The notes under the pieces were generated by a model. That model saw only the letters and a program-made list of their open reading frames with translations, was not told the DNA's origin and did no database searches. From a virus: DNA of 43,474 nt. The stretch's first letter is position 1; each line of letters opens with the position of its first letter. Location of the stretch: the IMG/VR virus record IMGVR_UViG_3300042448_000896, positions 1-43,474 of that record. One strand, written 5' to 3'. Position numbers and translations under genes: made by a program. This document shows, in pieces, positions 2,140 through 25,287 of the stretch.

Positions 2140-5073
2140 TTATTCTAAGTATGTGAAAATGAATTGTCCGTTCACGATTGCCATAGTGCAATTACTAGAT
2201 GGACCACCAGTAAGATTTCTTACACATAATGCAAATTGAGTACCTTCTTGTCCAGATTGTCCAGTTGGTCCTCCCGTTAAAGTTTGTATAGCAACTCCGT
2301 TTATATGGAATGTAAAATTTCCTAGCCCGTCGCCAGTAATTTCAACCAACGTAACGGGCGAAAAGGGCGATGTAGTCGTAAATATGGGTGTTGCTCCGAC
2401 GTTTAGAGTCGTTCCATCCATCACCCACGCATAATATGATCCAGCTGAACGCCATATACCCACTGCTTTATTTGGAGCTTCAGGTGCTCCATATTTTCGG
2501 TATTGACGCGAACAACCCATACGCACCCAACCATCTGCTCCTGCGTTTGGCCCACTATTGGATCCGTGTGATACTGTAATTTTAAAACCGAAGTATGTTT
2601 TTCGGTCGAAATTAATACCAGTTGTGCCAGTAGTAGCTTCTCCTGCATAAACGAAGGGAGCCGGATTAAAGGAACCGGCAAGCAAAGATGATTCACTCCC
2701 TAAAGTCGCACTTGTAGATACGTTCATAAATCTACCTGACGACGTTGCAGTTCCACCAGCAATAACCATGGTGTGTATGGTTGTTCCTGATGCGATGTCA
2801 GCAATTAGCGGAGCAGAAATTGTAACGTTTGGTAGTGGTGAAACAGCAGCCGCATTTATAGCTGTGATGTATGTATTATGCGGAATTCCAGTGAATATGT
2901 TTGTTGCGATTGTCATACCAACTGCCATACCAGCCGTTGTGGTGAGCCTAAGACCAGTTGCACCCGTTGAAGCTGGTTGGTTTAATGTCGTGTTTATTGC
3001 CTGAGAAGAAAAACCCATCGCTACATCGACAAGAGTGATTGTTGCCAAACCTAACAATCCAACATTTGATATGTATCGTGCATCTGCTAACGAACGCGTT
3101 AAAACTGAATTTCCGGTGGTATCCGTTTGGTTTGGTGCTGTTATTTGTCCATTACAAATCAAGTCATCTGTAAAGGTTTTATCGCCAGCAATACTTTGAT
3201 CACTTGTATTATATACAATATTACCGGAGTATATATTGGTGGCAGATATATTTCCCGAGACTGTTAATTTTTCATTTGGAGTAGTTGTCCCGACACCGAC
3301 ATTTCCATTAGCATCAATTCTCAACCTCTCAGAACTAGCCGTAGAGAAAGCTAGTATATTTGTACCAGCCCTCCACATACCTAAACTTGACTCCGCAGTA
3401 AATGTATGAGAAGGAGCACTTACCGTCCCTGATCCACCTGCAACATTACCTAAAGTGCTAATACCTCCACCTGCGGTAAAAGTGGTCGCATTTGCACCAG
3501 AACTTGTGAACACAACTGAATTACCAGCTGTTTTATAAAACCCAGTAGTTTCCCAACCAATAGAAGGTGCGCCGTTTGAACCGTTTGATCCAAGTTGTAT
3601 AGTTCCAGCTGCTGTATTTGTAGCGCCGATACCCAAACCGCCAGTAACAAAAGTATTCCCAGCTACAGTTAATTTTTCGTTTGGAGTAGCTGTCCCGACA
3701 CCGACATTTCCAGTACTTGTGTCAACATATAGGTGATTGGTATTCACCGCAAAATCTCCAGTTCCCGATAGCGTGAGGTTTATGTTTTGCCCAGAGGTAG
3801 GGGAAATCGTTAGAGCGCCACCGGTTCCAACCCCTTGCATTGTTAGACCTCCAGTTGAACTAATTGTTGAAGACCAGTAATTGGAAGTGTCATATCCAAT
3901 TCTCATCTGTTCTGATGTCTTCGTGACGTGTAGTTGCGCAGAGATAGTGCCTGAAATACCAACATTACCAACACCGATGTTGCCTTGGTTATTTAAGAAG
4001 AGTATTCTACCATTAGCATTTGTGAGGCCAACAGAGCCAGCTCCACCAGTTGAGCTGATTATAAATTCTCCAGGCGACGTCGAGGAGTTATAACCGACAT
4101 ATGCCTGGACGCTGCCATCGCTTCCTCTAGCAAAACGAATGCGTCCGCTTTGCCCGGACGAGCCAACCAATATTTGACCGTTTGAAAAGTTTGCTGTGGC
4201 TGTTAATAAAGACGTGAAGGTTTTATCGCCAGCAATACTCTGATCACCTGTGTCATATACAACACCTTCAGGCGTAGGGCCCGTTGCTCCTGTTGCTCCT
4301 TGAGGTCCAGTTGAGCCTTGCGGACCTTGAATACCAGTTTCTCCTACAAGACCTTGAATACCAGTTGCTCCTGTAGATCCTTGGGGCCCAGTTGAGCCTG
4401 TCGCACCGCTTCCTCCTACAAGACCTTGAATACCAGTGCTGCCGGTTGCTCCTTGGGGTCCTGTTGAGCCTTGCGGACCTTGAATTCCAGTTGCTCCGCT
4501 TGAAGCAATTAGATCCCAAAATAAACTACCATCATATGGAGTATCTCCTATGTTACCGCCATTGGCATGTTTTCGATAAAACAGTTGGCCGCCGTATGTT
4601 GCGAGATCGCCAACCGAATAACTTACACCACCATTATACTCGTGAGTGTAATTCCATAAAGCGTCTACACCGGCTGGTCCAGTTGAGCCTGTCGCACCGC
4701 TTCCTCCTACAAGACCTTGGGGTCCAGTTGATCCGACTAAACCTTGAGGACCCGTCGCCCCAATTGGTCCTGTTGAACCCGTCGCCCCAATTGGACCTGT
4801 GCTACCCGTCGCCCCAATTGGTCCTGTGCTACCTGTAGACCCAATTGGTCCTGTTGAACCAACTAAACCTTGAGGACCCGTCGCCCCAATTGGTCCTGTG
4901 CTACCTGTAGACCCAATTGGTCCTGTTGAACCAACTAAACCTTGAGGACCCGTCGCCCCAATTGGTCCTGGTGCAAGAGTGTTATTTAGTGTAGATGAAA
5001 AACTATCTTGTTCAACAAGTGTTCCACCTATTACGTGCGTTGATATTATTTGGCCACCGATGATGTCAGGCAT
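2140..5073 (-). CDS. Collagen-like tail fibre with carbohydrate-binding module
   Basis: A 977-residue virion adhesin. A short N-terminal segment is followed by collagen-like Gly-X-Y triplets (about residues 36-133, dominated by GPIGATG and GPQGLVG). Residues about 135-190 form a module with W, Y and GD spacing like a type-3 chitin-binding / CBM5-12 fold ([17 protein letters not shown]). A second collagen-like stretch follows to about residue 270. The middle consists of beta-structured repeats of the type [15 protein letters not shown] and [11 protein letters not shown], common in phage fibres. The last ~150 residues are rich in Gly and aromatics and look like a lectin-like tip ([24 protein letters not shown]). 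It very probably binds the host surface; the receptor is unknown. No clear Shine-Dalgarno is present. Confidence 0.85.
4388..4719. repeat. 41-bp perfect direct repeats flanking the carbohydrate-binding module
   Basis: Bases 4388-4428 and 4679-4719 are identical over 41 positions. They encode the same collagen-like segment and bracket the ~250-bp stretch that encodes the CBM5/12-like module. Recombination between them would delete or exchange that module in frame. Confidence 0.85.
4808..4970. repeat. 72-bp tandem repeat, 2.3 copies
   Basis: Two identical 72-bp units (4808-4879 and 4880-4951) and a 19-base partial third copy (4952-4970). Each encodes 24 residues of collagen-like triplets. Perfect DNA identity, not just protein similarity, points to recent duplication or ongoing unequal recombination. 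Confidence 0.9.
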
Positions 5074-5080
5074 GTTTAAC

Positions 5081-5425
5081 TTATTCTATTGGCTTAGTTG
5101 CGCGAGGTGTAATTTCGGCTTGACCTTCGCATACACGAATCACATCAGTTTCATTTTCATTGTAAATTTCGACATCAAAGACATATCGACCAGGCTTCAT
5201 TGCCCCGGTTTGAGTTGGTGTAAGGTTAATGTAAATTTCACCAGACTCTGGATCCTGAATACTTGTTGAGAAATTTACAGATGTCAATGATGAATATGAT
5301 CGACGGATTTGACCACGTGCTGCAAATCCGGTGAGATTCACTGGCAACTTATTTGCGCCAACTACGGGAATCTTACCTGAATATGTTGAGCCTTGATCTA
5401 TGGTGATATCAGTGTACTGGGCCAT
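5081..5425 (-). CDS. Small beta-sandwich virion protein, LtfC-like
   Basis: A 114-residue protein beginning [17 protein letters not shown], with [15 protein letters not shown] in the middle and RYVFDVEIY near the end. This is the layout of the small LtfC/p132/Gp6-type beta-sandwich family associated with phage fibres: a polarity-rich strand, then 'VNLTGyxARxQIR', then 'GxYxyDvei'. It sits between two large collagen-like fibre genes, which supports a role as a fibre-associated structural protein. A late-type box lies 6 bases before the ATG. Confidence 0.65.
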
Positions 5426-5450: not shown

Positions 5451-8141
5451 TCACTGGATTATCATAACACTCACCTTACATTCTGCTGTAGCAGCAGCGT
5501 TTCCATGCACCGCATATGAATTAGTCCCGGGCACAATGCGAATGTATTTTAATGTAGTGTCATCTGTTATCAGAGTTCCAACAATCGGAGTCGATGTGGT
5601 AACTCCGATCGCAGATACAGTCACAGAACTTTGACCTACATCGATCGTAACAATTTCTCCTTTGATACCTAGAGCAGTTCGATGATTAGTTTTAGCTGTA
5701 GCGTTGTTATATGTGAAGGATGCGCTGTTAGAATAAACCTGACCCGCTGATGTTATGATTCCACCTGCGCCATACTTAACTAAATTTCCATCGGTCGGTG
5801 TAGGTGAAGTTAACTGAGATATTAATGAATTTTTAGAAGGAGTCGTCAAATCAAATTGTACGCCAGAGAAAGTAATTGTTTTAGTGCTACCTCCGTTATA
5901 CACCACGCTTCCACTCATTTGAACAGACGAACTGAAGAATGCGGTTGCATTGACTGTTACTGAACTAGTAAAAGTATCGTTTGTTTGAATGATGAGTGCC
6001 GAATTGAAACTATGCCATTGATCAGCTCCATCTGATGTTGTATATGAAATAAAGTTTCCAATGTTGCATAATTTAGAATACCCGGAAGCACCTGACATAT
6101 CATGCACGGTTGTTCCAATTTGTGCAGTGCTACCAATTAGCTCATTAACAGTTAAATCGCCGTTTTCATTTCTTAATGCAATAGTATCAGGTGTAGCTTC
6201 AACATCTACACCATCAATATCAGCCGGTGTAATTTCACCGTTCGATTGACTGGTTAATGCTATATTTCCAGATGATGAAGGTAAAGTCCAAGTAATGCCT
6301 GATGCACCCGATGCACCTATTAATGAATTAGTCCCGCCTAACTTATATGAATTTGCGCTTAGTATACCAGAACTATCTCTTAACGCTAAAGTATTTGGTG
6401 TGCGCTCTACGGTTGCGTTCTCAATATCAGCTGGAAAGATTTTACCGTCGGATGCTGATACCACCGCTAATGTTTTGGGGGTGAGGGAGTGCGGCAAATA
6501 CAATACATTATCAGCTTCACTAGTATATTGTAGTTGAGAAGTGCGCCCAGGACCATTTCGTAAAGTTATGCTATTAACAAATACAGGTGCGGTTATTCTA
6601 CCATCTCCGTCGTATTTAACAACCTTATTTGCCGATGGAGATGCAGATGCATCTGTGATAGCTGAACTCACGTGTGTGTGTGAAGATGGCGTAAACGTGC
6701 CTGGCACTCCAGTAAGATCTCCCCATGCAGTTGTTCCAGTTGCCCCTTGTGGTCCAGTTGCGCCTGTTGCTCCGTTTATTCCGGACAAACCGATTGGTCC
6801 TTGCGGCCCCGTTGCTCCTTGTGCTCCTTGTAGTAATCCAGCATTAGTCCATGGTTCTGGTGCATTTGCTGCGGTGTAAATATAAACAACCTTTGTATCC
6901 GCGAGTATCCATGCATCACCATCGGCTGGAGACGGTATTGTATTTAATGCCGCGAAATTAGCAACACTTCCTTTTAGTGTAAATGCCGTTCCAGGTGGTC
7001 CTTGTGGTCCAGTGATACTCCCAAAAGTTTGAATTGTACCATTGCTAAACTGGATGATTAACGTGCCGTCATATAGGACAGTAATAGTCCCTATACTAAT
7101 ACCAGTTGCCCCAATTAGTCCACTCACACCTGTTGCTCCACGCGGTCCACTTGCGCCGATTGCTCCACTTGCGCCGGTTGCTCCAGCTGCTCCAGCTGCT
7201 CCAACTAATCCCGGCGGCCCAGTCGCACCGGTTGCTCCGGTTGCTCCGGTTGCGCCGGTTGCTCCGGTTGCGCCGGTTGCTCCGGTTGCGCCGGTTGCTC
7301 CACTTGCCCCGGTTGGCCCAACATCACCAGAAGGTCCCTGTGCTCCAGTTACTCCAGTTGCTCCGGTTGCGCCGATTGCTCCACTTGCTCCGGTTGCGCC
7401 GGTTGCGCCGGTTGCTCCAGATGGGCCTGCCGATCCGTTAAGACCAGCTGCTCCAGCTGCTCCAACTAATCCCTGCGGCCCAGTTGCGCCGGTTGGACCA
7501 GCGGACCCGGTAGCACCTGTTGCTCCAGATGGGCCTTGAGGTCCTACAATACTTCCAGCATCAACCCAGCCAGATCCACCCCAAACCCATGCATGGCCGG
7601 TGTAGGCAACAATCCATAAATCACCTTGCGTATTACTAGTGGATGGAGGAAGGTTGTCGAAAATATCGACTGCACCTTTTACGGTAATACTTGTTCCAGG
7701 TGCGCCAGTTGCTCCTACAACGTCTCCGACTAAAATGACTGAAGAATTTGATAGCGTTAAGAAAAGATTTCCATCATATCCGATTTCAGCTGATACGATT
7801 GTCGCTCCAGTCGCTCCAGTTGGACCAGTTGATCCTCTTACACCAGTTGCTCCAGTTGCTCCGCTCCCTCCGGTGTTTCCAATTGGACCCTGCGTGCCTT
7901 GAAGACCGGTTGGACCGGTTGCTCCTGTCGCTCCGGTTGCTCCACTACTACCGCCAGTTGCGCCGCTTGCGCCAATTAGATCTTGACCAATGAACTTAAT
8001 GTTATCGGCTTCATCTTTGTAATAGAGCTTCCCGTCAGCATAATTTAAAGCAAATTCACCGCGTTCCAAAAACGCAGATGTTGGTACCGCTGAAGGGACT
8101 GAGCTTGATTTTACAATCACGCGTGTTGGGATATCTGACAT
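5451..8141 (-). CDS. Collagen-like tail fibre, long GAT-triplet rod
   Basis: An 896-residue adhesin. Residues 1-52 (RGEFALNYADGKLYYKD) form the small N-terminal unit found at the base of many phage fibres, resembling the major tropism determinant N-terminal domain. Three collagen-like Gly-X-Y blocks follow, at about residues 57-113, 200-345 and 425-470; the second includes many consecutive GAT triplets. Between them lie two copies of a ~55-residue domain (GTSITVKGAVDIFDNLP..GDLWIV and GTAFTLKGSVANFAAL..GDAWIL). The second half is beta-rich with fibre repeats (ITPADIDGVDVEATPDTIALR). It is flanked by late-type boxes. The exact virion position (fibre or baseplate appendage) is not established. 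Confidence 0.85.
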   Translation of the reverse strand: MSDIPTRVIVKSSSVPSAVPTSAFLERGEFALNYADGKLYYKDEADNIKFIGQDLIGASGATGGSSGATGATGATGPTGLQGTQGPIGNTGGSGATGATGVRGSTGPTGATGATIVSAEIGYDGNLFLTLSNSSVILVGDVVGATGAPGTSITVKGAVDIFDNLPPSTSNTQGDLWIVAYTGHAWVWGGSGWVDAGSIVGPQGPSGATGATGSAGPTGATGPQGLVGAAGAAGLNGSAGPSGATGATGATGASGAIGATGATGVTGAQGPSGDVGPTGASGATGATGATGATGATGATGATGATGATGPPGLVGAAGAAGATGASGAIGASGPRGATGVSGLIGATGISIGTITVLYDGTLIIQFSNGTIQTFGSITGPQGPPGTAFTLKGSVANFAALNTIPSPADGDAWILADTKVVYIYTAANAPEPWTNAGLLQGAQGATGPQGPIGLSGINGATGATGPQGATGTTAWGDLTGVPGTFTPSSHTHVSSAITDASASPSANKVVKYDGDGRITAPVFVNSITLRNGPGRTSQLQYTSEADNVLYLPHSLTPKTLAVVSASDGKIFPADIENATVERTPNTLALRDSSGILSANSYKLGGTNSLIGASGASGITWTLPSSSGNIALTSQSNGEITPADIDGVDVEATPDTIALRNENGDLTVNELIGSTAQIGTTVHDMSGASGYSKLCNIGNFISYTTSDGADQWHSFNSALIIQTNDTFTSSVTVNATAFFSSSVQMSGSVVYNGGSTKTITFSGVQFDLTTPSKNSLISQLTSPTPTDGNLVKYGAGGIITSAGQVYSNSASFTYNNATAKTNHRTALGIKGEIVTIDVGQSSVTVSAIGVTTSTPIVGTLITDDTTLKYIRIVPGTNSYAVHGNAAATAECKVSVMIIQ
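7222..7302. repeat. 9-bp microsatellite encoding Gly-Ala-Thr triplets
   Basis: Nine consecutive 9-bp units alternating between gttgctccg and gttgcgccg (plus-strand reading), with the first and last units slightly diverged. They encode a run of collagen-like GAT triplets on the minus strand. Slippage here would change rod length in steps of three residues without breaking the frame. Confidence 0.9.
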
Positions 8142-8146
8142 AAAGG

Positions 8147-8154
8147 TATTTATT
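8147..8154 (-). promoter_or_regulatory. T4-type late promoter box (AATAAATA)
   Basis: AATAAATA on the minus strand, 5 bases before the ATG at 8141. It overlaps the last two bases of the stop region of the upstream RCC1-repeat fibre gene. Confidence 0.6.
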
Positions 8155-10942
8155 AAATGTTTTTAGATTTTGTTAAGTATGGAACCGCTGCGTCGTTCGG
8201 GAAGGCACCAACATTATAATAATGATAACCACACGTATGCAAATCGCCGTATTCTTGGCTATCGTCGGCAGTCATAAGTGTTGTTAAGTGCCCACTACTT
8301 TCACGTATAATTGTAGTTTGTACATCAGTTACATTACTATCATTTTCAACATACACGTTTTGTGGAGCATTGTGTGAGGCTGCGTTATTATGTGTTCCTA
8401 ACTTGTTGTATGGATTTTCACCCCATGCAGTTAATTTCTTATTGGTGCCTGATTGAAATACACAAAATCTACAATTGGTTCCAGGACTAAAGAATTGGTG
8501 TACTGAGTAATCATTGCCTGTAATTTGGAGACCGCTGTCGCTTAGATTCGCAACCGATACTTTTTGAAATTGACTTTGGTATCCTACGTTTTGGCCGATA
8601 CCTAACTGACCATAGTTATTTCTTCCACATGCATACAGATGATTGCCTGTTGCGGCCGTTGAAACAAAGTGCACCGTGTGGTCTAATCCAGTGTATAGTG
8701 CTTGGGATTTAACGGTTGAACCAATTGTTTTTTCTACTGCAGTTGGGAGTGATTTATATGCAGTTGATCCATTTCCTAGTTGACCATAACCGCCATACCC
8801 CCATGCATATAGAGTTCCATCTGTCGTTTGAATATAACCAAATGTCAAGCCTCCAGTTCCACCAAATGCAGCATTTGCTATGCCAGTCATTCGCTTATGA
8901 ATTTGAGTGCTCCCGCTAAATGTTAGTGGTGCCGTCGACGATGTGATAGGCACTAACAAATCATTACTACATAATTGGAAGGTGTTAGCAGATAAAACTT
9001 TCACTACATAATTAAGTGTACCGGACTTGGCGATGTCATAATCTTGCAATCCATGTGGAGATGTAGAGGTGTAAGTACCTGAATCATATGCAGTTGTACC
9101 GCCGGTATAAGAAGATGTTACTGGATTTAAGACTGGGACCCATGTCGGATTACTATTGCTGAAATTGATCCGACCCATTTGACCCCAACCACCATAACCA
9201 CATGCCCACAATGTATCGTCTGTTGCTAAAACATATCCAGTCTGCGCGTTACCGTCTCCAATTAGCCATGCTTTTCTAACAGTCTTTCCACCTGGATTTG
9301 TTGCACGCGGAAGGTAAGCTGTGGAGGTGCCGGCGCCTGGAGCACTTGAGCCAAGCCCTAGTTGACCATACCGATTGCTTCCTGCAACCCATAGGCGACC
9401 ATCCTTTGTTATTGCATATACCGTCTCGGCCGTGGAGTAACTTAAAATAACTTCATCAATTGGTTCTCCGTCAAACGCGAGGTTTGGTGAAGTGAGGTAT
9501 GTTGCTGATGCCAATGGGAGAGCAACGCCCGTTTTGCGAACAGAATTCCATCCATACGAATATACAGTATCATCTGCATATTTTATGTATGTGTTATATG
9601 TATCAGAATAAACGTTCGTAGCATTTTTAGAGTATATCGGAAGCGTGTACCCAAGAGCATTACTATAAACATCTCCATATCGTAATGCACGAGAACCGTC
9701 GGATGCTCCATATGCCTTAACATGGTTTTCGTAATTTACAAATACTGCTCCGAGGTATGGTTGCACACCGTAAGAATTATAACCTTTTCCATTTAGACTT
9801 CGGATCTTATGATCTTTTGATTCGGCCAGGTTATCAACATAAGCTTTATTGACGAGAATTGATCCTTCAGCGGTAGGTCCTACGATACCGGGTGTGTTTC
9901 CTCGAACATAACCATTTGTATCTCTAAGAGGAATTCCTATAGATCCAGTTGCAGCGGTCGTCGACGCATTTGCTAACTTCGTATAAGATATTTCACCGTT
10001 TGATAGTAACAACCTTTTATTGATATCAAACGTAAATTCAGAGCCTACGTTTAGCGAAACCGTTCCACCGTAAATATCAATTGAAGAGTTAGCATCCTTA
10101 CCTAATAGAGTGACACCATTTCCACTGTTGAGTGTAAACGTAACGGTCGCATCCTTTTTAGCTTTAATGTAATAATGTACATCGTAATATGATGGAGCAC
10201 CCGTTGCACCTGTTGATCCAATGAATCCGGTTGCACCGCTTGATCCCATAAGAACTTTGGTTCTCAAATCGGGAGTCGTGAATGTTCCAGGATTAGGCGC
10301 TTCTAATTTAGCAGCCAGTTCAGGATATGTTTCCGAATTGTATGTAGTTTCACCATCGCATAGTAACCAAGTGTTTTCAATCAATCCAGTTGAAGGAGCT
10401 GAATTTAGTCTAACACCAATAACGGTTCCAACTGGAGTAATTTCTTGAGCTGATACTAAAGCGGACTTAGCAATGCCGAGCTTAACTTTGTCAACAACAG
10501 TGTTCAAACTCTCAAACGCAATATTGCCAGCTGGATTATGGTATACGTAACCTTCAATTTGGTCTTCCTTGAGTGTTGGCCACTGATATGTTCTTCCGCC
10601 AAGAGTAAGCTTACCACTTCCAGAGATTAAAGTGTTAGCTGATAGAGTCTTATCTCCTAGAATTACTAAGTTGTTTGTCAGCAAAAGTTCACTTGAAGAG
10701 TTGACAGTAAGAGGTACATTTCCACCACTTCCGCCAACCGTAATTCCGTTACTGAAAATTTTGTTACCTAATACCGTTTGTGCGGAATTATCCAATAGCA
10801 AAACACCATTGCGTGAAGCATAGGAAGAATTGATGGTGCTAACCTTTCCGATTATTCCATTGGTCTTTAGTCTCCATGTCTCAAATGTATCGGTGCCCAA
10901 TACACCAGTGGCGCCAAATAGGTCAAAATCAATTGTTTCCAT
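8153..10942 (-). CDS. Tail fibre with collar domain and RCC1-type repeats
   Basis: A 929-residue virion protein. The N-terminus (DTFETWRLKTNGIIGKV, residues 18-34) is the attachment unit common in fibres of marine T4-like phages. Residues about 169-234 (TPVGTVIGVRLN..WLLCDG..FTTPDLR) match the phage tail-collar domain. From roughly residue 380 to the end there are repeated RCC1-type units with the signature 'LxxxGxxxxGQLGxG' (for example AGSNRYGQLGLG, AWGYGGYGQLGNG, ACGRNNYGQLGIG, AWGENPYNKLG), consistent with a seven-bladed beta-propeller or similar. RCC1 repeats are best known from eukaryotic proteins, but they also occur in bacterial surface proteins. I infer a receptor-binding head; the ligand is unknown. 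Confidence 0.85.
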   Translation of the reverse strand: METIDFDLFGATGVLGTDTFETWRLKTNGIIGKVSTINSSYASRNGVLLLDNSAQTVLGNKIFSNGITVGGSGGNVPLTVNSSSELLLTNNLVILGDKTLSANTLISGSGKLTLGGRTYQWPTLKEDQIEGYVYHNPAGNIAFESLNTVVDKVKLGIAKSALVSAQEITPVGTVIGVRLNSAPSTGLIENTWLLCDGETTYNSETYPELAAKLEAPNPGTFTTPDLRTKVLMGSSGATGFIGSTGATGAPSYYDVHYYIKAKKDATVTFTLNSGNGVTLLGKDANSSIDIYGGTVSLNVGSEFTFDINKRLLLSNGEISYTKLANASTTAATGSIGIPLRDTNGYVRGNTPGIVGPTAEGSILVNKAYVDNLAESKDHKIRSLNGKGYNSYGVQPYLGAVFVNYENHVKAYGASDGSRALRYGDVYSNALGYTLPIYSKNATNVYSDTYNTYIKYADDTVYSYGWNSVRKTGVALPLASATYLTSPNLAFDGEPIDEVILSYSTAETVYAITKDGRLWVAGSNRYGQLGLGSSAPGAGTSTAYLPRATNPGGKTVRKAWLIGDGNAQTGYVLATDDTLWACGYGGWGQMGRINFSNSNPTWVPVLNPVTSSYTGGTTAYDSGTYTSTSPHGLQDYDIAKSGTLNYVVKVLSANTFQLCSNDLLVPITSSTAPLTFSGSTQIHKRMTGIANAAFGGTGGLTFGYIQTTDGTLYAWGYGGYGQLGNGSTAYKSLPTAVEKTIGSTVKSQALYTGLDHTVHFVSTAATGNHLYACGRNNYGQLGIGQNVGYQSQFQKVSVANLSDSGLQITGNDYSVHQFFSPGTNCRFCVFQSGTNKKLTAWGENPYNKLGTHNNAASHNAPQNVYVENDSNVTDVQTTIIRESSGHLTTLMTADDSQEYGDLHTCGYHYYNVGAFPNDAAVPYLTKSKNI

Positions 10943-10947
10943 ATATC

Positions 10948-11184
10948 TTAACTATTTATACCTGCTAACTTTGATACTTGATGTTCTAGCACTTCGCATC
11001 GTTTTATCAATTCTTCAATCTGATTTTTCATTTGTGCATGTTCAGACTTTTGTTGAGCAATCGCTTTCTTTTTCATCTTAGCATTAAGATATGCATCTCT
11101 ATTTGTATTAACGATAGAGTTGGATTGAGTATCGCGACATAAATCGCGATACTCATCAACCGGGACCATATGACTTAAACTCAT
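10948..11184 (-). CDS. Small coiled-coil protein in the baseplate operon
   Basis: A 78-residue protein with an N-terminal segment MSLSHMVPVDEYRDLCRD and a C-terminal heptad-like helix (about residues 35-73, QMKNQIEELIKRCEVLEHQV) that should form a coiled coil. It overlaps the stop of the upstream 1715-residue baseplate protein by 4 bases, so it is translationally coupled to it. The fibre gene follows 5 bases downstream. Position suggests an oligomerising adaptor or assembly factor for the fibre/baseplate junction; no function is known. Confidence 0.7.
   Translation of the reverse strand: MSLSHMVPVDEYRDLCRDTQSNSIVNTNRDAYLNAKMKKKAIAQQKSEHAQMKNQIEELIKRCEVLEHQVSKLAGINS
10953..10960 (-). promoter_or_regulatory. 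T4-type late promoter box (TATAAATA)
   Basis: A perfect TATAAATA on the minus strand, 10 bases before the ATG of the RCC1-repeat fibre gene at 10942. It lies within the 3' end of the coiled-coil gene. Confidence 0.75.
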
Positions 11185-14100
11185 GTGGTAGCAATTGCTC
11201 TGAAGTTTTTAATACGTGGGACGTCAACAATATTTGCACCGACAAATTCAATCTTAACTCTAAATGAACCAAATTCGCTAGGTGTAGATTTAATCTGATA
11301 ATGAATTTCAGAAAACGTATCAGGATCGGTGTTTACTGGGATGAATCGTGGATTCAATATTGGAACGCTGATCCAATCCCCGCTGTCATCATACTTAACA
11401 TACACGTTTAGATTGCACACAGTGGATGGTCGATTTGCGTCAAAGTAAATATCAAGCTGATCTGCCTTTTCGGCTAATTGAATGTCACGTGTAACATAGC
11501 GAGAAGTTTTTGCTGTATCCGTTTGGATGTTGTTGCGAATCAACTTAACATTTAGGCGGTCAGTGTCAATGACTGGAGTGATATAATCAGAAGTAGTATA
11601 TAGAGTAGAAGTAAGCTCTACCAAATTATTACGATTCACACCATCCTCGTCATCGGACCATGCCTTCTTGCTCTTATATGCTTCATATGTAGAGTCGGCT
11701 TCAACTTTATAATTGTTACCAATAATGGTGATTTGATTTGTAACTGATGTTTTGATGTCAGCTGATATTGCAAGCTCAACTGTATCTTGATCTAAGACGA
11801 AGTTAGAGACCTGATGATTAGCCATCACTGCTATTGCTGTTGCTTGTGTACCGCCCGATCCTGGCGGATCAATTGTGACTGTTGGAATGTTGGTATAGCC
11901 TTCACCTTGATTCGTGATAACAATTTCAGAGATTCCGTCACTTGAATTTCGAACTGCATACGCAGTTGCGCTACCATCAATAGTGACTGTTGGCGCTGAC
12001 GTGTAACCTGAACCAGCATTTGTAACTTGGATTCTTCTTAGCGTTTGTACTGATGGAGTATTAAATACAACTTCTTTTTGAGAGTTTGCATCAAATTGAG
12101 CACGGTATAAAGTAAATGTAAGATCTACTGTTTGTTCTGGCGTCCATGTTGATGAGTTTGCACTGACAAAGAATACGCCTCCGTATGGATTCTTCGAGAT
12201 AGTCTGTCCAGCATCTGCGATGTTGGGTTGACCTAATGTTGCCGTGAATACTTTGTAATCAACATCAGTACTCTTACAAACGACTGCATATTCTTGATAT
12301 GGAGATAGGTACACTGGCTGTTCAAATTCAAAATATGTCGGAGGTCCTGGAAGTTGATTGTCAGATACAATCACATCAGCTGTCTTCTTAATCACCGTTG
12401 AGAGTGGAACTACATTTTGCGTAGGCATCCCATTTTCACATGTAACAATATAAATTTCAACTGGAGTATTTGTGGAAGATTTCTTGGAAAAGAATAAGTC
12501 AATACCAACAGCAAAGATACCTTCATCATTGTCGATTAAAAAGCTCTGCGCAATAGGGTCTTGATATCCACATACACCATGACTGTTAGCAACAGTATGA
12601 GTTACATTATTGATTCTGATTTCAGCAACTGGTGTTCTTACAAGTTCAGGAACGGCCGTCGAAAGAATCGCTGACTGAACCGTCTTAGTCATTCCAGATG
12701 CAACATAGTTAGTTGATGCATAACTCGTTATCTCTGGAGAAGAATTTCTTGGAGAATCTGATAACTTAAATTCACGTTCACCCGTCAAGAATCGCAAACC
12801 AGACTTCGTGAAGTCTGGTACAACAAACACTCCAAATAATTCACCGTCTTCGTTTGACTTAATTTGTGTTTGGCTACCTGGTGTAATTTCAGGTAGATAT
12901 GGTCCTACGATGTCATCATTCTTTCTTTCATTAAACTCAGTTTCAGTTAGATTGTAACAAGTAAATCCAACATCAACTCCATCAAAGAATGGGTAGTAAA
13001 TAGTGTTGGCCTTAAGAGCTTTGGCGCTGAAATAAATGTAACGGCGACGAATATATGGTCGAACCGAAAGGTCAACCACACGTTCACCTAAATCGACGGT
13101 CGTATTATCAGTACCAATTGATGTGGTTAATCCGTCTCTGCGGTATTCAATCTGATTAGCAAAACGTTTTCTTATTTTCTTACGAGTCTTCTTTCTGTAT
13201 GAGTTCACCGGCTTCCCGCCCCAGTATGCGGTCCAGCTATTCCATTCAGTGCCAAGAATGTCAACATCAAGCACGTCTTCCAGTCCGGTTAGAACGTTTA
13301 TAAATGAATCTTTAAGCGAGTCATTTTGAACAACATTTGGTGCAATTTCATTTGTCTCACACCAATAATCTGCTGATGGGTAGAGACTTAATTTACCAAC
13401 AGCTGTTGCTGTGTCAAGAGGAACAATTGTGCGTGATTCGCTTGCCGCGCTCTGTTTGATATAAGCAAGTGGTTTATACGGTAAAGTTATTGAACGATCA
13501 TGTACACCGCTCAACCAGCCTTCAGGCATTACCTGAGCGGTGCTAAATGCCTTAAGTTTAAGACTTCTTGTTGAGAAAGCGGGGCGGCACTCATTGGTAT
13601 CTGGATCAACCGCGCACACGCTGTTGCCTTCGGATGTATCACTTACATTATGACCTATGAAATTGTCGACTACAAAACCATTCTTAAATCGGTCAATACC
13701 GAGGTCATCGAGAATAGTCGCATCATTTGCGTTCTTTTCAAGCAATGAAAGCGTCGTGTAGTATTCAAGATTTGAGATTCGTTTTTCTAATGAGCGGATG
13801 TTACTCATTGTGTATCTCTTATTGTCAATCTTTTCTATATCTACGTCGTCAGGACCGAATGTATATGGGCCGATGTTAAGAGTGTATAACTCCATCGCGT
13901 TTGATGGAATAGATCTCTTCCTAGGCTCAGTTGAAGCAACACCTTTAAGAATTGAAAATTCTCCGATATTGTTAACGACTACGCTATCAATTCGAGGAAT
14001 GTAGTATTCAAGATCAAACGTGATTGTGCTGTATGGATCAATTGGAGAAAATTGTGATGCGCCAAGTACATAGCGGAAGTCAAGAACGTCAATGAGCGGA

Positions 14101-16328
14101 GTAGTACCATATGATGGAATATCCTCAAGAGGTATTTGAACTGTCGATGTTATTCCTCCGCTTACGACGGTCTTCTTATAACTGAGAGCGTCATAATAAA
14201 CCGCGTCGGACGTATCAAAGTCATAGTATGTAACGGTAAGAGTAACTGGCACAGTGTCCTCACCCGTTTTAGTTATTCTAATCGTTGCGTCTTCATAATG
14301 AGAATCATATTGTCCATCATTAACAATTTCATATGTAGGACCACTAGGACCAGTAACAGACACAAGATGCTTAATGCCAGTGAGTGTACGTACTCCATTG
14401 ACAGGATTACTTATTGTGCGTGTCGCTGTCTTAAGAATTTTATTACCTCGCTTAGCAGTGCCAGTCACAGAAGCAATAACAGTTGCCGTTACAGACGTGA
14501 TGCCTGCGGGTAAACCGTTCAATGTCAAGGTTAGAGTATTTGAACTGGTTCCTTGAGTAACATTTATGTCTGTAACTATTGCCGTTGATGGAGCTCCACT
14601 CACAAGACCAGCGACTCGAACAATAATGTTTGTCGGGCTCTTATCAAATGCGCTCCCAGTATCAGTTACAACTGTAAGTGTGCCAACCGTAGAGTCGGTC
14701 TTTGTGACAGATACGTTACTAAAGACTTTCTTCTTAAGAATTTGTACATCTTCGATGTTCTTTATTGGAGAAAATGGAAGATCATAAAGAGCAGTGCGAA
14801 CATCAGCATCTTTAAGAACTGTGTCTGAGATAAATGTAATAGAACTGCCTAAGACGATTTTCGTATCTTCGTGAATAGTACGAATTTCAGATGTTCCTAT
14901 AAATTTTATGTCATATAGGAAAAGGCGATATGTTCCATCACCATTTGATTCAATTGAACGGATGCGGGTGCTTCCGATTGTCGCGGCGCCGTAAGTCCCA
15001 GACTTAAGAGTATAGATCGTTTCTACATTCTCAATGTCTGGAATGTCACTACCCGAATCAAATATACCATCGACATACATTCCCATGTCAGCTGAAATAC
15101 CAACATTTTGTAAACTGTCGGTTTCTCTGGCTTTAGAAAATTTCAAAGGAATTGCAGAATTCAATTGTACACGATATCCTTTAACATATGCAACCGATGG
15201 ATCGAGCGTGCATATCAAGTCTTCTTGCGCAGCCGCAGCATTTGTGTAGCCGTTATCAAGTAATTGGTTATTTACGTAGAGACCACCATTTGTTAGATCG
15301 TTATACGCTTCACGAATATGAATTGGGAATGGGTTAACCTCATAGTTACCTGACTCTTCATATGTACGCTTTGCAAGTTTATCATCAATCCCAGTAAATT
15401 CCGCTTCAGCGTAATTGACCATCACCTTGTCATCAACAATCTTTAAGATCGTAATGTATTTTTCATCCGATGGTATATCAGTTCCGCTTAACAATTCTAA
15501 CTTAAGATCGATGTAATAGCGATCAGCTCCAGGTGAGCTGTAGTTAAGATATCCTCGAGCATTGTCAAGAAGAGTCTCGTCGGTCTCAGATGTAGCAATG
15601 CCTTCGGTTACTTTAAGAACTGCATATCCGGTGAATTTAGAATTCGCTGGAATATCAGTTGCAACATACTGCTCATCGACTGGAACATAGCATCCTTTGA
15701 TGAAGTATACCCCTTTTGCAACCTGTGCTCCCACCGAAGAATGTACCGATGTAACGTTTAAACCAATTGACCCAACAGTATCATCTTGACTGTTATCTAA
15801 TGATAAAAGATCGCCGACGGAATACTTCGAGATATTTGTTTGGGTTGCACTCGTTTCGGAATTTGTATTCTTAAGAAAAAGCTTGTAACGATATTGACCA
15901 TCTATAGTAGGCGGCTCTAGCGGCTCAACTATAACAACCTTTGCGCGCAGTGGTAGTTCGGCGCTTACTCCAACTGTAGTGCGAGTAACACGATTGTATG
16001 ATGTAAAATCAAATACATCATCCGTAAGGTTTTCGTCTAAATCAATCAGCGGAGTCGATGTTGTGACATCTACACTATAGATTTCAAGCTGATCATCAAA
16101 TCGAGCGCTACCATCAATTACTGGCTTACCGCTCTGATAAATGCTATCGCCGAGACGATCAAGTTGAGCTTGAATGAGTGACTGCAGCTGATTTAGTTCA
16201 CGTGTTTGAACTGCATATCCTGGCTTAAATAGGATACGCATGTAATTTTTATCCAACGGTGTTTTACCGTTAGAGTCTGGCACGTTAACGTCGTCGCAGT
16301 AAGTTGTATTGTATGCAGTAATTGCCAT
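11181..16328 (-). CDS. Giant baseplate/fibre-attachment protein, DUF4815-type
   Basis: A 1715-residue structural protein and the largest gene in the window. The N-terminus (YCDDVNVPDSNGKTPLDKNYMRILFKPG, then AVQTRELNQLQSLIQ) matches the DUF4815 family found in large virion proteins of T4-like marine phages. About residues 830-900 are a helical linker (SNIRSLEKRISNLEYYTTLSLLEKNA). Around residues 1435-1500 there are two copies of a short motif of the form GxGYTxxPTVTI, which recurs in phage structural proteins. It starts at the stop of gp8 (stop and start overlap) and lies where T4 encodes gp9-gp12, so I infer a wedge component that carries fibres. No cleavage signal or membrane segment is visible. 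Confidence 0.8.
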   Translation of the reverse strand: MAITAYNTTYCDDVNVPDSNGKTPLDKNYMRILFKPGYAVQTRELNQLQSLIQAQLDRLGDSIYQSGKPVIDGSARFDDQLEIYSVDVTTSTPLIDLDENLTDDVFDFTSYNRVTRTTVGVSAELPLRAKVVIVEPLEPPTIDGQYRYKLFLKNTNSETSATQTNISKYSVGDLLSLDNSQDDTVGSIGLNVTSVHSSVGAQVAKGVYFIKGCYVPVDEQYVATDIPANSKFTGYAVLKVTEGIATSETDETLLDNARGYLNYSSPGADRYYIDLKLELLSGTDIPSDEKYITILKIVDDKVMVNYAEAEFTGIDDKLAKRTYEESGNYEVNPFPIHIREAYNDLTNGGLYVNNQLLDNGYTNAAAAQEDLICTLDPSVAYVKGYRVQLNSAIPLKFSKARETDSLQNVGISADMGMYVDGIFDSGSDIPDIENVETIYTLKSGTYGAATIGSTRIRSIESNGDGTYRLFLYDIKFIGTSEIRTIHEDTKIVLGSSITFISDTVLKDADVRTALYDLPFSPIKNIEDVQILKKKVFSNVSVTKTDSTVGTLTVVTDTGSAFDKSPTNIIVRVAGLVSGAPSTAIVTDINVTQGTSSNTLTLTLNGLPAGITSVTATVIASVTGTAKRGNKILKTATRTISNPVNGVRTLTGIKHLVSVTGPSGPTYEIVNDGQYDSHYEDATIRITKTGEDTVPVTLTVTYYDFDTSDAVYYDALSYKKTVVSGGITSTVQIPLEDIPSYGTTPLIDVLDFRYVLGASQFSPIDPYSTITFDLEYYIPRIDSVVVNNIGEFSILKGVASTEPRKRSIPSNAMELYTLNIGPYTFGPDDVDIEKIDNKRYTMSNIRSLEKRISNLEYYTTLSLLEKNANDATILDDLGIDRFKNGFVVDNFIGHNVSDTSEGNSVCAVDPDTNECRPAFSTRSLKLKAFSTAQVMPEGWLSGVHDRSITLPYKPLAYIKQSAASESRTIVPLDTATAVGKLSLYPSADYWCETNEIAPNVVQNDSLKDSFINVLTGLEDVLDVDILGTEWNSWTAYWGGKPVNSYRKKTRKKIRKRFANQIEYRRDGLTTSIGTDNTTVDLGERVVDLSVRPYIRRRYIYFSAKALKANTIYYPFFDGVDVGFTCYNLTETEFNERKNDDIVGPYLPEITPGSQTQIKSNEDGELFGVFVVPDFTKSGLRFLTGEREFKLSDSPRNSSPEITSYASTNYVASGMTKTVQSAILSTAVPELVRTPVAEIRINNVTHTVANSHGVCGYQDPIAQSFLIDNDEGIFAVGIDLFFSKKSSTNTPVEIYIVTCENGMPTQNVVPLSTVIKKTADVIVSDNQLPGPPTYFEFEQPVYLSPYQEYAVVCKSTDVDYKVFTATLGQPNIADAGQTISKNPYGGVFFVSANSSTWTPEQTVDLTFTLYRAQFDANSQKEVVFNTPSVQTLRRIQVTNAGSGYTSAPTVTIDGSATAYAVRNSSDGISEIVITNQGEGYTNIPTVTIDPPGSGGTQATAIAVMANHQVSNFVLDQDTVELAISADIKTSVTNQITIIGNNYKVEADSTYEAYKSKKAWSDDEDGVNRNNLVELTSTLYTTSDYITPVIDTDRLNVKLIRNNIQTDTAKTSRYVTRDIQLAEKADQLDIYFDANRPSTVCNLNVYVKYDDSGDWISVPILNPRFIPVNTDPDTFSEIHYQIKSTPSEFGSFRVKIEFVGANIVDVPRIKNFRAIATT

Positions 16329-21846: not shown

Positions 21847-23391
21847 TTATGGGCCGAAGCGCGCCTGAGCTTTCTTGTATTGTGGAGCTTCTTTGCTTCC
21901 ACGTGAAACTAGGAATACTTGAACTGCTGCCATATTAGATGCTTTATATGGTTCAGGATTTAATGCAAAGATATCAACCTTTTTATATGTTAGCTCCTGA
22001 TTTCCAGTATCATGAACCGTGTATACGCCACTTGGATTTTTACCACTTGGGTTGTATGGAGTACCATCTGGATTCTTAAGAGCAAGTACGCTACCAATTG
22101 GAACACGCGTACTTGCACATGAAAAACCATCAATCAATCTATCACTAAACGGTCCTTTAAACGCATCTTCATAATCGAGAGTGCCAATCCTGAAAGACTT
22201 TCCTTTGCTATTTGTATATGTATTACCAGAAGGTATTTTATAGCCTCGGGATTGCCAATATGCTGTTAATTCCGGCGGGCGCTGTGAAGGTTTAATGTCT
22301 AAGAATGTCGTGTAGTCAGTATTTGGCCCGCCATACACCGTTACACCAGTTGAAAGCATTGAGCCTGTCACTGGTCCGATTTGATTGCGCATTGCATACG
22401 CGCGAACAATGTCACCTGAACGGCCAAGCGATATTCCGATATTATTACATCTGTTATTATAATCGGTTTTGATTTCTTCATTCCATTGAAGATTATGAGT
22501 ATTCAATTCAATACCAACACTCGTCTTAAATTCAGAAGCAAATCGCGCATCATCGGCATTTGACTTCGACTTCATTAACTTATCATGATATGCAAGAGCA
22601 ATTGTATTTACCGATGTTATCATTGAAACATATGAAGAGTCGCCTGTCTTTGATGTATCCTTGCCGGTGTAATTCTTGATTTCGAACATTAAACCATCAT
22701 AATCATTCTTAGCTGTTATTACTTGAGTATTAACAGTTGCACCCGGATGTGTTGGCGGTGACGCCATCGGGATAATTGCCGGTGAAGATATCCCATTGCT
22801 GAGAATCGCACCATTTGCAGTATAGTTTGGCGCGGAACAAATATCAAGAACATCAAGATTGTTAATCATATCTGTTATATTATTCACCGCCCCTCCAAAT
22901 TTAGTTAAAATTTCCTGAACCTTTTTGACCTTCGCTAATCCTTGTAAACCTTTTGCGATTGCTATTTCTGTGAGAAGATCTCTTTCCTTAATGAGCTTGG
23001 CAACATTAATGACTTCTTGTAATGTGCTAGCATATGCTTGAACTTGGCCGAGTTTCGAAACTACATCTTTTGCGGTTGAATTATTTGTAAGTAATTCCAT
23101 TGCCTTTTCTTGAGCTTTAGCCATAATGCGATCCTCAAGATTCATTACACAATCGAACAAATTTGCGGCTGGCTCCAAGTTAAGCGCTAAATTCGCTTTA
23201 ACCATGACAGCACTAATGTTAGTCATGCTGTCAACAGTCATTGCTGTATTAGCATTCGAAACATTCAATAAGTTTGCTGGATCTGCTAACGTGCCAACTA
23301 AAGATATTCCCGTTGGATCGGATGATAACTTTGATTTATTAAACGTGTTTTTAACTGATTCTGTCAGCGAAGATAGTTGGGTGTTTGCCAT
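21847..23391 (-). CDS. Baseplate hub-region protein with C-terminal 3D domain
   Basis: A 514-residue protein between the spike gene and gp25. The N-terminal ~200 residues are mostly helical with repeated hydrophobic faces (IMAKAQEKAMELL, KLIKERDLLTEIAIAKGLQGLAKV). The C-terminal ~110 residues form a 3D (three-aspartate) double-psi beta-barrel: FSCASTRVPIGSVLAL, YTVHDTGN and KVDIFA fit the family, which includes lytic transglycosylases related to MltA and cell-wall resuscitation factors. I infer a virion-associated, murein-directed domain at the tail tip. A purely structural use of the barrel cannot be excluded. Confidence 0.7.
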   Translation of the reverse strand: MANTQLSSLTESVKNTFNKSKLSSDPTGISLVGTLADPANLLNVSNANTAMTVDSMTNISAVMVKANLALNLEPAANLFDCVMNLEDRIMAKAQEKAMELLTNNSTAKDVVSKLGQVQAYASTLQEVINVAKLIKERDLLTEIAIAKGLQGLAKVKKVQEILTKFGGAVNNITDMINNLDVLDICSAPNYTANGAILSNGISSPAIIPMASPPTHPGATVNTQVITAKNDYDGLMFEIKNYTGKDTSKTGDSSYVSMITSVNTIALAYHDKLMKSKSNADDARFASEFKTSVGIELNTHNLQWNEEIKTDYNNRCNNIGISLGRSGDIVRAYAMRNQIGPVTGSMLSTGVTVYGGPNTDYTTFLDIKPSQRPPELTAYWQSRGYKIPSGNTYTNSKGKSFRIGTLDYEDAFKGPFSDRLIDGFSCASTRVPIGSVLALKNPDGTPYNPSGKNPSGVYTVHDTGNQELTYKKVDIFALNPEPYKASNMAAVQVFLVSRGSKEAPQYKKAQARFGP

Positions 23392-23397
23392 ATGAAA

Positions 23398-24246
23398 TTA
23401 TGGAGTTGGAGGTAATGTAACCGAATTGGTTTCAACGTGAACGTGATTAACAAGAGAGATTGATGCGCCAATAACATCTATATCAGATGTCACTGTTCCT
23501 TTTACACTAGCTTGTCCTGTTACATTTACATTTTCATCGACTGTAAGATCGCCTGCTTCAAGATGCATATCAGATGGAGCGTTTACAATAACTCCTCCCC
23601 CAGACGCTAAGTTTAAGTTTGCACCGCTAGCAACGGTCGCGTCTCCTCCTGCAGCCATGATTGATTTTCCGCTAACTGAGTTAACATAATTGCCCATGAC
23701 AGTAGAAGTGGAATCACTGGACACAACAGTTTGCATTTTTTCACCAACTGTTAAACTCTTTGATCCCATAATCTTTTCCTGATGAGCTCCGTGTACCGTT
23801 GAAATGACATTACCTGACACGTTTGTTCCAATGTCGCCGACGATGTCAGCCGCAATTCCGCCGCCATTAATCTTAGTATTAATCTTACCATCAACTTTTA
23901 AGTTGACATCCTTCTTTACATATAAATTGTAATTACCTTCAACCACTGTTTCACAATCACCCATGACAGTGATAGATGCATTACCGCCGATGAAGATGTG
24001 TCCATCTTGAATGATGGTGACCCAATCACTACCGACAATCGTTAAAGTACGTCCGCCGTCTGCGCTGTAAGTATCACATGTTCCGCTCTTGTGTTGGCGA
24101 TGAATTCGTTCGGCTCCAAGAGTATCGTCTACTTCATGAATGTGTCCGCTGCGTGACTTTTGTACTGAGTTAAACGGGTAAATGGATTCACCACCTTGTA
24201 ACGGCGGGCTCCACGAATTAGATGAAATTGGAAGAATGTCTGCCAT
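23398..24246 (-). CDS. Tail spike (gp5 C-terminal / VgrG-like beta-helix) with HxH tip
   Basis: A 282-residue protein corresponding to the needle of T4 gp5, here encoded separately. An N-terminal segment (SGHIHEVDDTLGAERIHRQHKSGT, residues 33-56) matches the strand that starts the gp5/VgrG spike. About 180 residues of short alternating strands follow (SITVMGDCETVVEGNYNLYV and similar), typical of the triple-stranded beta-helix. The end carries H268-V-H270 in NHVHVETNS, like the metal-binding HxH apex of P2 gpV and phi92 gp138. I therefore infer that the protein forms its own metal-capped tip. A late-like box lies 5 bases upstream. Confidence 0.85.
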   Translation of the reverse strand: MADILPISSNSWSPPLQGGESIYPFNSVQKSRSGHIHEVDDTLGAERIHRQHKSGTCDTYSADGGRTLTIVGSDWVTIIQDGHIFIGGNASITVMGDCETVVEGNYNLYVKKDVNLKVDGKINTKINGGGIAADIVGDIGTNVSGNVISTVHGAHQEKIMGSKSLTVGEKMQTVVSSDSTSTVMGNYVNSVSGKSIMAAGGDATVASGANLNLASGGGVIVNAPSDMHLEAGDLTVDENVNVTGQASVKGTVTSDIDVIGASISLVNHVHVETNSVTLPPTP

Positions 24247-24261: not shown

Positions 24262-25287
24262 TTAAGCTGCAATGATAGAAGCATTCTTGGATATAGTGAT
24301 AGCGCTTTGTACACTAGTTCTAATATTTCGATTTTTTTCAAAGACGCCCCATCCAACTCCTTTCCCTCCACCTGATGTATTGCCATCTATAGTTTTAAAA
24401 GATCCTGAAGCGTCACTGTCGGTTGATGCAATACCAATATGACTATATGAAAAGATGACTATATCTCCAGCTTTAATGTACCTTGGGTTTTCGCGAAGTT
24501 GCGCATATGATTTGCCTTTAGCCCATTTCTCCCATTCAAAGACCGCTGCCGATTTAGGTCTTTCAGCCTCAGATAATACGCCTGCTTGCTGTACACACCA
24601 TGCTATAAATGCAGCACACCATTTTCCTTTTTCTCCACCATATCCACCTGGGTATTCGGTTGCACTCCAAAACTTTTTAATGTCTGCTCCGTTATTGGAG
24701 CCTGGCGGCTGTTCTCTAACATGCAGTTGACTACGTGCAACATTTACAACATTAATCATTCCGCCATTTGGGACAAACTGAGCTTGAGGTTGATCAAACG
24801 AAGTCGATAAACCATTAGAATTCATATATGATCCATTAACTGCGTTTGCGGCTCCAAAGCTATTAGCAACGGTTCCAGCTGTCGAGGATGTTGCGGTTCC
24901 AGCTTCAGGCGGTATGTCATTTCCTATAAAGCCATCAAGCACTCCGTGTGGATCGCCAAACCCAATGTTTCCAGTCACGTCATATCCAACGTCATACCCA
25001 CTTGCAGACGTAATTGTTCCCATGATCACTGGATCTTGTAACTCGGCACCATCACGGAAGAAACCAAATACCCATGTGTTAGGGATTAACGCCGTCGCGC
25101 TTAAACCGATACCAGCAACACTTGCGGACGTTGTCGGCAACATAACAGTTGCAAGAGGTAAGTCCTGCGTTGGCAGCTTATTACGATCAGGCGTATGATA
25201 CCCAAGGCAGCGAACACGTACACGACCTTGGCCTTGAGGATCATTGATGTCCTCAACTACTCCTACATACCAATCATTAATTCTCAT
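24262..25287 (-). CDS. gp5-like baseplate hub: OB fold fused to CHAP domain
   Basis: A 341-residue hub protein. Residues 1-95 form the gp5 N-terminal OB fold (WYVGVVEDINDPQGQGRVRV, then IPNTWVFGFFRDGAELQDPVIMGT). A Ser/Asn/Gly-rich linker follows to about residue 178. Residues about 180-330 are a CHAP / NlpC-P60-like peptidoglycan hydrolase of the TIGR02594 type, with C224 in GKWCAAFIAWC, the AGDIVIF strand, and H283 in YSHIGI as the likely catalytic pair. T4 gp5 has a lysozyme domain at this place and carries the spike on the same chain; here the enzyme class differs and the spike is the next gene. It overlaps the gp27-like gene by 4 bases. Confidence 0.85.
   Translation of the reverse strand: MRINDWYVGVVEDINDPQGQGRVRVRCLGYHTPDRNKLPTQDLPLATVMLPTTSASVAGIGLSATALIPNTWVFGFFRDGAELQDPVIMGTITSASGYDVGYDVTGNIGFGDPHGVLDGFIGNDIPPEAGTATSSTAGTVANSFGAANAVNGSYMNSNGLSTSFDQPQAQFVPNGGMINVVNVARSQLHVREQPPGSNNGADIKKFWSATEYPGGYGGEKGKWCAAFIAWCVQQAGVLSEAERPKSAAVFEWEKWAKGKSYAQLRENPRYIKAGDIVIFSYSHIGIASTDSDASGSFKTIDGNTSGGGKGVGWGVFEKNRNIRTSVQSAITISKNASIIAA

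Follow-up and report, generated by a model that had tools for sequence, protein, structure and literature searches.

RCC1-headed fibres in described phages

Phage fibres with an RCC1 head are already known from isolates, and the protein described here, P0001, adds one. In the T7-like Pseudomonas phages PollyC and Ppr_SeaP1-4 (phrog_4219), a fibre anchor is followed by a C-terminal RCC1 head of ~400-500 aa. Their anchor is of the T7 type and recurs in about 50 other Pseudomonas phages, the majority of them similar in the anchor alone; the RCC1 fibre gene of PollyC occupies the tail-fibre position, and a related head is found in the unrelated phage Littlefix. There, gp88 (phrog_20500; Schitoviridae) is a long tail protein that also carries a C-terminal RCC1 head. 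RCC1 proteins are present in virions too: mass spectrometry of E. coli phage W70 particles identified three phrog_4219 RCC1 proteins (PMC11370258), and Cronobacter phage GAP32 virions contain RCC1 repeat proteins as well (PMC11370258, PMC5259590). Rak2-like jumbo phages encode many RCC1 proteins with no known adhesin role (PMC7247149, PMC5259590); phAPEC6 has 11 RCC1-like copies (PMC7247149), 121Q and PBEC04 several each (PMC5259590). We found no paper in the open-access literature on RCC1 propellers as phage receptor-binding heads.

P0001 is encoded in the window analysed here, a 43,474-base IMG/VR fragment taken at full length. Its head is detectably related to those of PollyC and SeaP1-4 (P0001 matched phrog_4219 at 6.5e-26), and the head is all that they have in common; the T7-type N-terminal anchor of these phages contrasts with the DTFxxWxxKTN anchor and collar trunk of P0001. 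More generally, phrog_4219-type fibres fuse a trunk to a C-terminal RCC1 head as P0001 does, but the trunks differ; likewise, Littlefix gp88 shows the same arrangement in another phage family and on another trunk. The likeness to the W70 and GAP32 proteins is by repeats only. Synechococcus phage S-SRM01 (T4-like) has RCC1 genes immediately after its baseplate-wedge and tail-fibre genes, but these are separate genes of 344-405 aa that, unlike P0001, have no fused anchor or collar trunk. The eukaryotic UVR8, HERC2, RPGR and RCC1 share the repeat signature and the predicted fold class with P0001, at about 20% identity, with seven blades as the canonical number and with unrelated functions. To these systems, our analysis adds an anchor-motif gene trio, head exchange on the trunk of P0001, an insert within the head, the question of blade number (seven versus eight) and a point on PHROG labels.

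The first-pass annotation had called RCC1 repeats uncommon in phage adhesins. This holds among isolates: out of 50,697 phage records, one canonical viral RCC1 query matched 22 (E<1e-5). Viral contigs, in contrast, are rich in RCC1 proteins. At least 120 IMG/VR stretches matched one RCC1 pattern and at least 520, among the 600 candidates listed, encode RCC1 relatives, figures that take in stand-alone RCC1 proteins and are therefore no count of adhesins as such. In several IMG/VR loci, among them L178 2435-8166 and L196 1289-8248, four to five RCC1 genes of about the same length follow one another on a contig, reminiscent of the eleven copies in phAPEC6. Searching for the same head elsewhere, as had been proposed, yielded the RCC1-headed fibres of PollyC, SeaP1-4 and Littlefix on the phage side; on the side of possible hosts, a bacterial genome scan returned generic RCC1 relatives only (23-35% identity), with no host link. 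Full-length P0001 gave no match at 1e-5 by tblastn against isolated phages. Scans of viral contigs for close relatives, with whole P0001, its head or its N-terminus, returned a single contig, which overlaps the fibre locus and carries an identical P0001 ORF.

The fibre ORF and its RCC1 repeats

The ORF and the elements of its head are as follows (window coordinates; numbers in brackets are signature residues).

8153..10942 (-), tail fibre ORF with C-terminal RCC1 head (P0001), 929 aa
8153..9790 (-), putative RCC1-type propeller head, residues 385-929 (Pfam RCC1; UVR8 by sequence; RCC1 domains by fold)
9683..9766 (-), hairpin 1 (409), degenerate; by eye and by alignment with L351 and L362, missed by the hairpin HMM
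9527..9610 (-), hairpin 2 (461), degenerate; by spacing, residues 448-598 being aligned by a full-head viral HMM
9356..9439 (-), hairpin 3 (518), GSNRYGQLGLG; 19.6 bits
9173..9256 (-), hairpin 4 (579), GYGGWGQMG; 13.7 bits
8879..9121 (-), insert of ~80 aa between hairpins 4 and 5, residues 608-688
8774..8857 (-), hairpin 5 (712), GYGGYGQLGNG; 28.0 bits
8600..8683 (-), hairpin 6 (770), GRNNYGQLGIG; 16.0 bits
8396..8479 (-), hairpin 7 (838), degenerate; 3.5 bits, in the shuffle range, strands in model 2
8204..8287 (-), hairpin 8 (902), degenerate, C-terminal; by eye only, low pLDDT in both models

RCC1-type repeats had been proposed for 8153-9800 (-), which corresponds to residues 381-929 of P0001. 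By comparing the protein with Pfam, we could confirm this assignment: RCC1 (PF00415) matched four stretches with E=1.8e-25 and 89.7 bits (cut-off 21.7), and RCC1_2 (PF13540) matched with E=1.6e-7. WD40_RLD also matched (E=1e-31), yet its 111 bits are below the cut-off of 150. The best sequence match in the PDB was UVR8 (E=5e-21), followed by HERC1, HERC2, RPGR and RCC1. Over the virus's own record, PF00415 has five places, three of them above cut-off, and PF00415 rings were found in 0 of 14 control genomes. The PF00415 place on hairpin 7 (8321-8428) reaches 19 bits, under the cut-off.

The same annotation counted at least six units with the signature GxxxxGQLGxG. The literal motif occurs only three times, its first G being at residues 521, 715 and 773; the unit at 579 has a GQMG variant and the remaining units are degenerate. 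Eight hairpins can nevertheless be traced by eye from spacing and pattern, at residues 409, 461, 518, 579, 712, 770, 838 and 902. With a hairpin HMM made from viral RCC1 repeats and a background of 200 shuffles (best shuffle 6.3 bits), four units (518, 579, 712 and 770) were clear, whereas the unit at 838 scored below the best shuffle. Hairpin 1 is supported by the homologues L351 and L362. The units are 25-58% identical in nucleotides over 84 nt and are therefore not recent copies, in agreement with the earlier remark that they differ from one another in DNA. Judged from the sequence, the RCC1 repeats of P0001 are real, chance being excluded.

Predicted fold and blade number

We modelled the head in two AlphaFold2 runs, which reached mean pLDDT values of 58 and 56 and pTM values of 0.58 and 0.57, with blade cores at pLDDT 70-90 and poor values for the insert and both ends. 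The alignment behind model 1 consisted of whole seven-blade relatives, in which the insert got filled with a blade, leading to a distorted ring. When fragment rows were tried, the fragments landed on wrong blades. Rows of six repeats kept the register and left the insert nearly empty, and model 2 still had a mean pLDDT of 56. These row sets were chosen among many trials by register, not by fold outcome.

A structure prediction had been suggested as a check of the RCC1 assignment, and our low-confidence models point to this fold class. With both models, the leading Foldseek matches were all RCC1 domains (E to 2e-17), and VIA Z scores against RCC1 domains were 19.8 (model 1) and 24.2 (model 2), the best other propellers reaching 11-14. 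The rmsd to RCC1 domains was 5.8-8.2 A, measured on models with the mean pLDDT given above. Fold matches in BFVD include the PollyC and Littlefix fibres.

The number of blades is less clear-cut. First, 164 viral ORFs from the fetched loci have six complete hairpins as their longest run, and those of them read by eye have an extra N-terminal half that brings them to seven signatures, in keeping with a ring of seven blades in which both ends meet to close it. Second, the best non-RCC1 match of model 2 was DPP4, with a lower rmsd over fewer residues. DPP4 is an eight-bladed propeller, and with models this weak the match is only a hint. The propeller of P0001 is predicted to have seven or eight blades.

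The insert between hairpins 4 and 5 has low pLDDT in both models and is missing from the homologue L351. It has no family match in Pfam or NCBIfam and no significant match in the PDB. By pattern only, it resembles the HGL...NTF beta modules of L395 and L381: a phmmer comparison of the insert with L395 reached no significance, and the insert of P0001 itself went into the profile by which L381 was matched. Tail proteins of E. coli phages gave one weak match (E 0.03; 38% over 69 aa). We tentatively consider, as a possibility we rate below even, that the head is an RCC1 propeller variant that has eight blades and holds a foreign beta module between two of them, serving as a phage receptor-binding head. 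In L395, too, eight hairpins can be counted by eye, and comparable segments lie in two places, ahead of hairpin 1 and between hairpins 3 and 4, which would make eight blades a recurring variant.

A shared trunk with exchangeable heads

Upstream of the head, P0001 consists of an anchor, a shaft and a collar region.

9830..10942 (-), anchor, shaft and collar trunk, residues 1-371
10853..10891 (-), N-terminal anchor motif DTFETWRLKTNGI, residues 18-30 (DTFxxWxxKTN)
10253..10414 (-), putative phage tail collar domain, residues 177-230 (PF07484)

The collar domain of P0001 scores just under the PF07484 cut-off of 24 (21.9 bits, E=1.7e-4), and collinear collar domains in its homologues L378, L413 and L405 reach 48.2, 40.4 and 37.0 bits, respectively. 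Residues 1-248 align with these same three proteins (E 1e-11 to 8e-9), and residues 244-371 align with L413 (E 1.6e-4). We regard the assignment of P0001 as a tail fibre, made from its sequence, as strong.

By scanning IMG/VR for DTFxxWxxKTN, we found at least 119 stretches with the motif. Among the matches listed, it lies inside the first 60 residues in 105/116 motif ORFs, and the motif ORF follows a DUF4815/phrog_358 homologue at <400 bp in 57/77 pairs; since the scan was seeded with P0001's own motif, these figures describe motif carriers and not all fibres. The motif proteins listed range from 202 to 1715 aa, some of them ended by the contig edge.

The C-terminal parts of these proteins differ. 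Between L413 and L405, identity along the trunk is about 80-100% in the majority of 40-residue windows, collar loops excepted, and the similarity is lost in the last part of the protein. L378 has a full-strength collar domain followed by an RCC1 head; compared with P0001, its collar region is longer, and seven hairpins can be counted by eye. Two further uncultured relatives, L351 and L362, have the anchor and trunk in common with P0001 and L378 but, unlike P0001, are ended by the contig edge; L351 also bears an RCC1 head. Elsewhere among the motif proteins, the C-terminal part is an S74 chaperone or, in L373, a pectate-lyase-like tailspike. Because L413 and L405 bear other heads on a trunk homologous to that of the RCC1-headed L378 and L351, the RCC1 part is an exchangeable head. 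The first-pass view of an RCC1 propeller heading a collar-domain fibre is thus backed by sequence families, by fold comparison and by a trunk whose relatives have differing heads. Moreover, finding RCC1 on a trunk whose relatives bear unrelated heads supports trunk-borne RCC1 members as host-range modules.

Gene neighbourhood of the fibre

Two genes precede the fibre on the same strand.

11181..16328 (-), DUF4815/phrog_358 large structural protein, 1715 aa, upstream neighbour of the fibre
10948..11184 (-), small ORF, 78 aa, coiled-coil-like, between the DUF4815 gene and the fibre

The large protein matches Pfam DUF4815 (E=2.7e-49) and phrog_358, a family of unknown function (E=1.9e-287); by context, it would be associated with the baseplate wedge. 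The small ORF matches phrog_473, annotated as 'virion structural protein' (E=1.6e-9). In most of the listed contigs in which a DUF4815 homologue and a motif fibre are separated by ~200-250 bp, this gap holds an ORF of 60-78 aa, and the order at the P0001 locus (DUF4815 gene, small ORF, motif fibre) is exactly as in those contigs. Anchor motif, small gene and DUF4815 neighbour together provide a sequence handle to locate head-bearing fibres in T4-like phages.

The small ORF is conserved, with a motif like RDxxSxAIINTD and a coiled-coil-like C-terminus. Lying between a large structural protein and a fibre with a variable head, its product may be a fibre adaptor. The neighbouring fibre has a collagen-like GATG region (7183-7526) whose internal copies are about 83-84% identical in DNA, which points to a recent duplication within this region, beside the RCC1 fibre. 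Between the two collagen-like fibres, ORF 5081-5425 (-) matches L-shaped tail fibre assembly proteins (phrog_3304, E=6.8e-23) and possibly encodes a chaperone of both.

Proposed role and alternative explanations

P0001 is probably a modular T4-like tail fibre that combines a baseplate anchor, a shaft with collar and a tip RCC1 propeller binding a host surface structure. This reading draws on the RCC1 homology, fold class, anchor, trunk, gene position and differing heads on homologous trunks documented above by sequence and model. The N-terminus with DTFxxWxxKTN would attach the fibre to the baseplate near the DUF4815 protein, and the shaft and collar domain would carry the head outward. At the tip, an RCC1-type propeller of seven or eight blades, with its ~80-aa insert between blades 4 and 5, would bind the host surface structure. 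We infer the virion location of P0001, its oligomeric state, its outward orientation and receptor binding via loops or insert. Most likely, the RCC1 propeller acts as a swappable host-gripping head.

The RCC1 part could instead be structural or decorative (a spacer, a whisker or an assembly platform), the receptor being bound by another fibre such as the collagen-like 5451-8141 or 2140-5073. Several observations are compatible with such a role, namely the presence of these two further fibre genes on the fragment, the runs of consecutive RCC1 genes in IMG/VR contigs, and the jumbo coliphages phAPEC6, 121Q and PBEC04, which have many RCC1-like copies, some of them in virions (PMC7247149, PMC5259590). 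We nevertheless consider it unlikely, given that the RCC1 part is C-terminal, on the tip side, and swapped for other domains on homologous trunks, as a receptor-binding head would be. The mass spectrometry of W70 virions (PMC11370258) fits the adhesin and the structural readings alike and speaks against a purely intracellular role.

It is much less probable that the head is an enzyme, that is, a propeller-type depolymerase or glycosidase acting on host polysaccharide. Propeller folds are present in some phage tailspikes, and the pectate-lyase-like tailspike of L373 indicates that enzymatic heads occur in the motif-fibre family. However, the best sequence and fold matches of P0001 are all non-enzymatic RCC1 domains, RCC1-type domains act as interaction platforms, and P0001 matched no glycosidase family.

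A DNA-binding or DNA-condensing function is hardly credible: phrog_4219, 7220 and 16766 are named 'regulator of chromosome condensation; DNA, RNA and nucleotide metabolism', and DNA spooling has been proposed for the RCC1 proteins of phAPEC6 (PMC7247149), but P0001 has a fibre anchor and a collar trunk, and we rejected this role because the N-terminal half of the phrog_4219 profile is itself a tail fibre, SeaP1 residues 1-444 matching phrog_4219 (1e-208) together with several tail-fibre families. Although uncultured viral contigs hold RCC1-repeat proteins in abundance, PHROGs places these under DNA metabolism, a label that is misleading for trunk-borne RCC1 members.

The virus

The fragment comes from an uncultured phage, and T4-like genes on it encode gp4, gp2, tail tube, hub, tape-measure, SSB and helicase-loader proteins. 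Compared with its counterpart in Methylophilales phage Melnitz (record taxonomy Kyanoviridae), the gp6-like protein shows 33.5% identity, and it is about equally close to those of Pelagibacter and Synechococcus phages. Within the baseplate gene cluster, a 514-aa ORF (21847-23391, -) has no PHROG match. Two adjacent ORFs, 23398-24246 (-) and 24262-25287 (-), match separate segments of the profile of phrog_430, a tail-lysozyme hub family (positions 321-494 and 19-141, respectively), so that gp5 is apparently split into two genes, and a similar pair is present in Melnitz.
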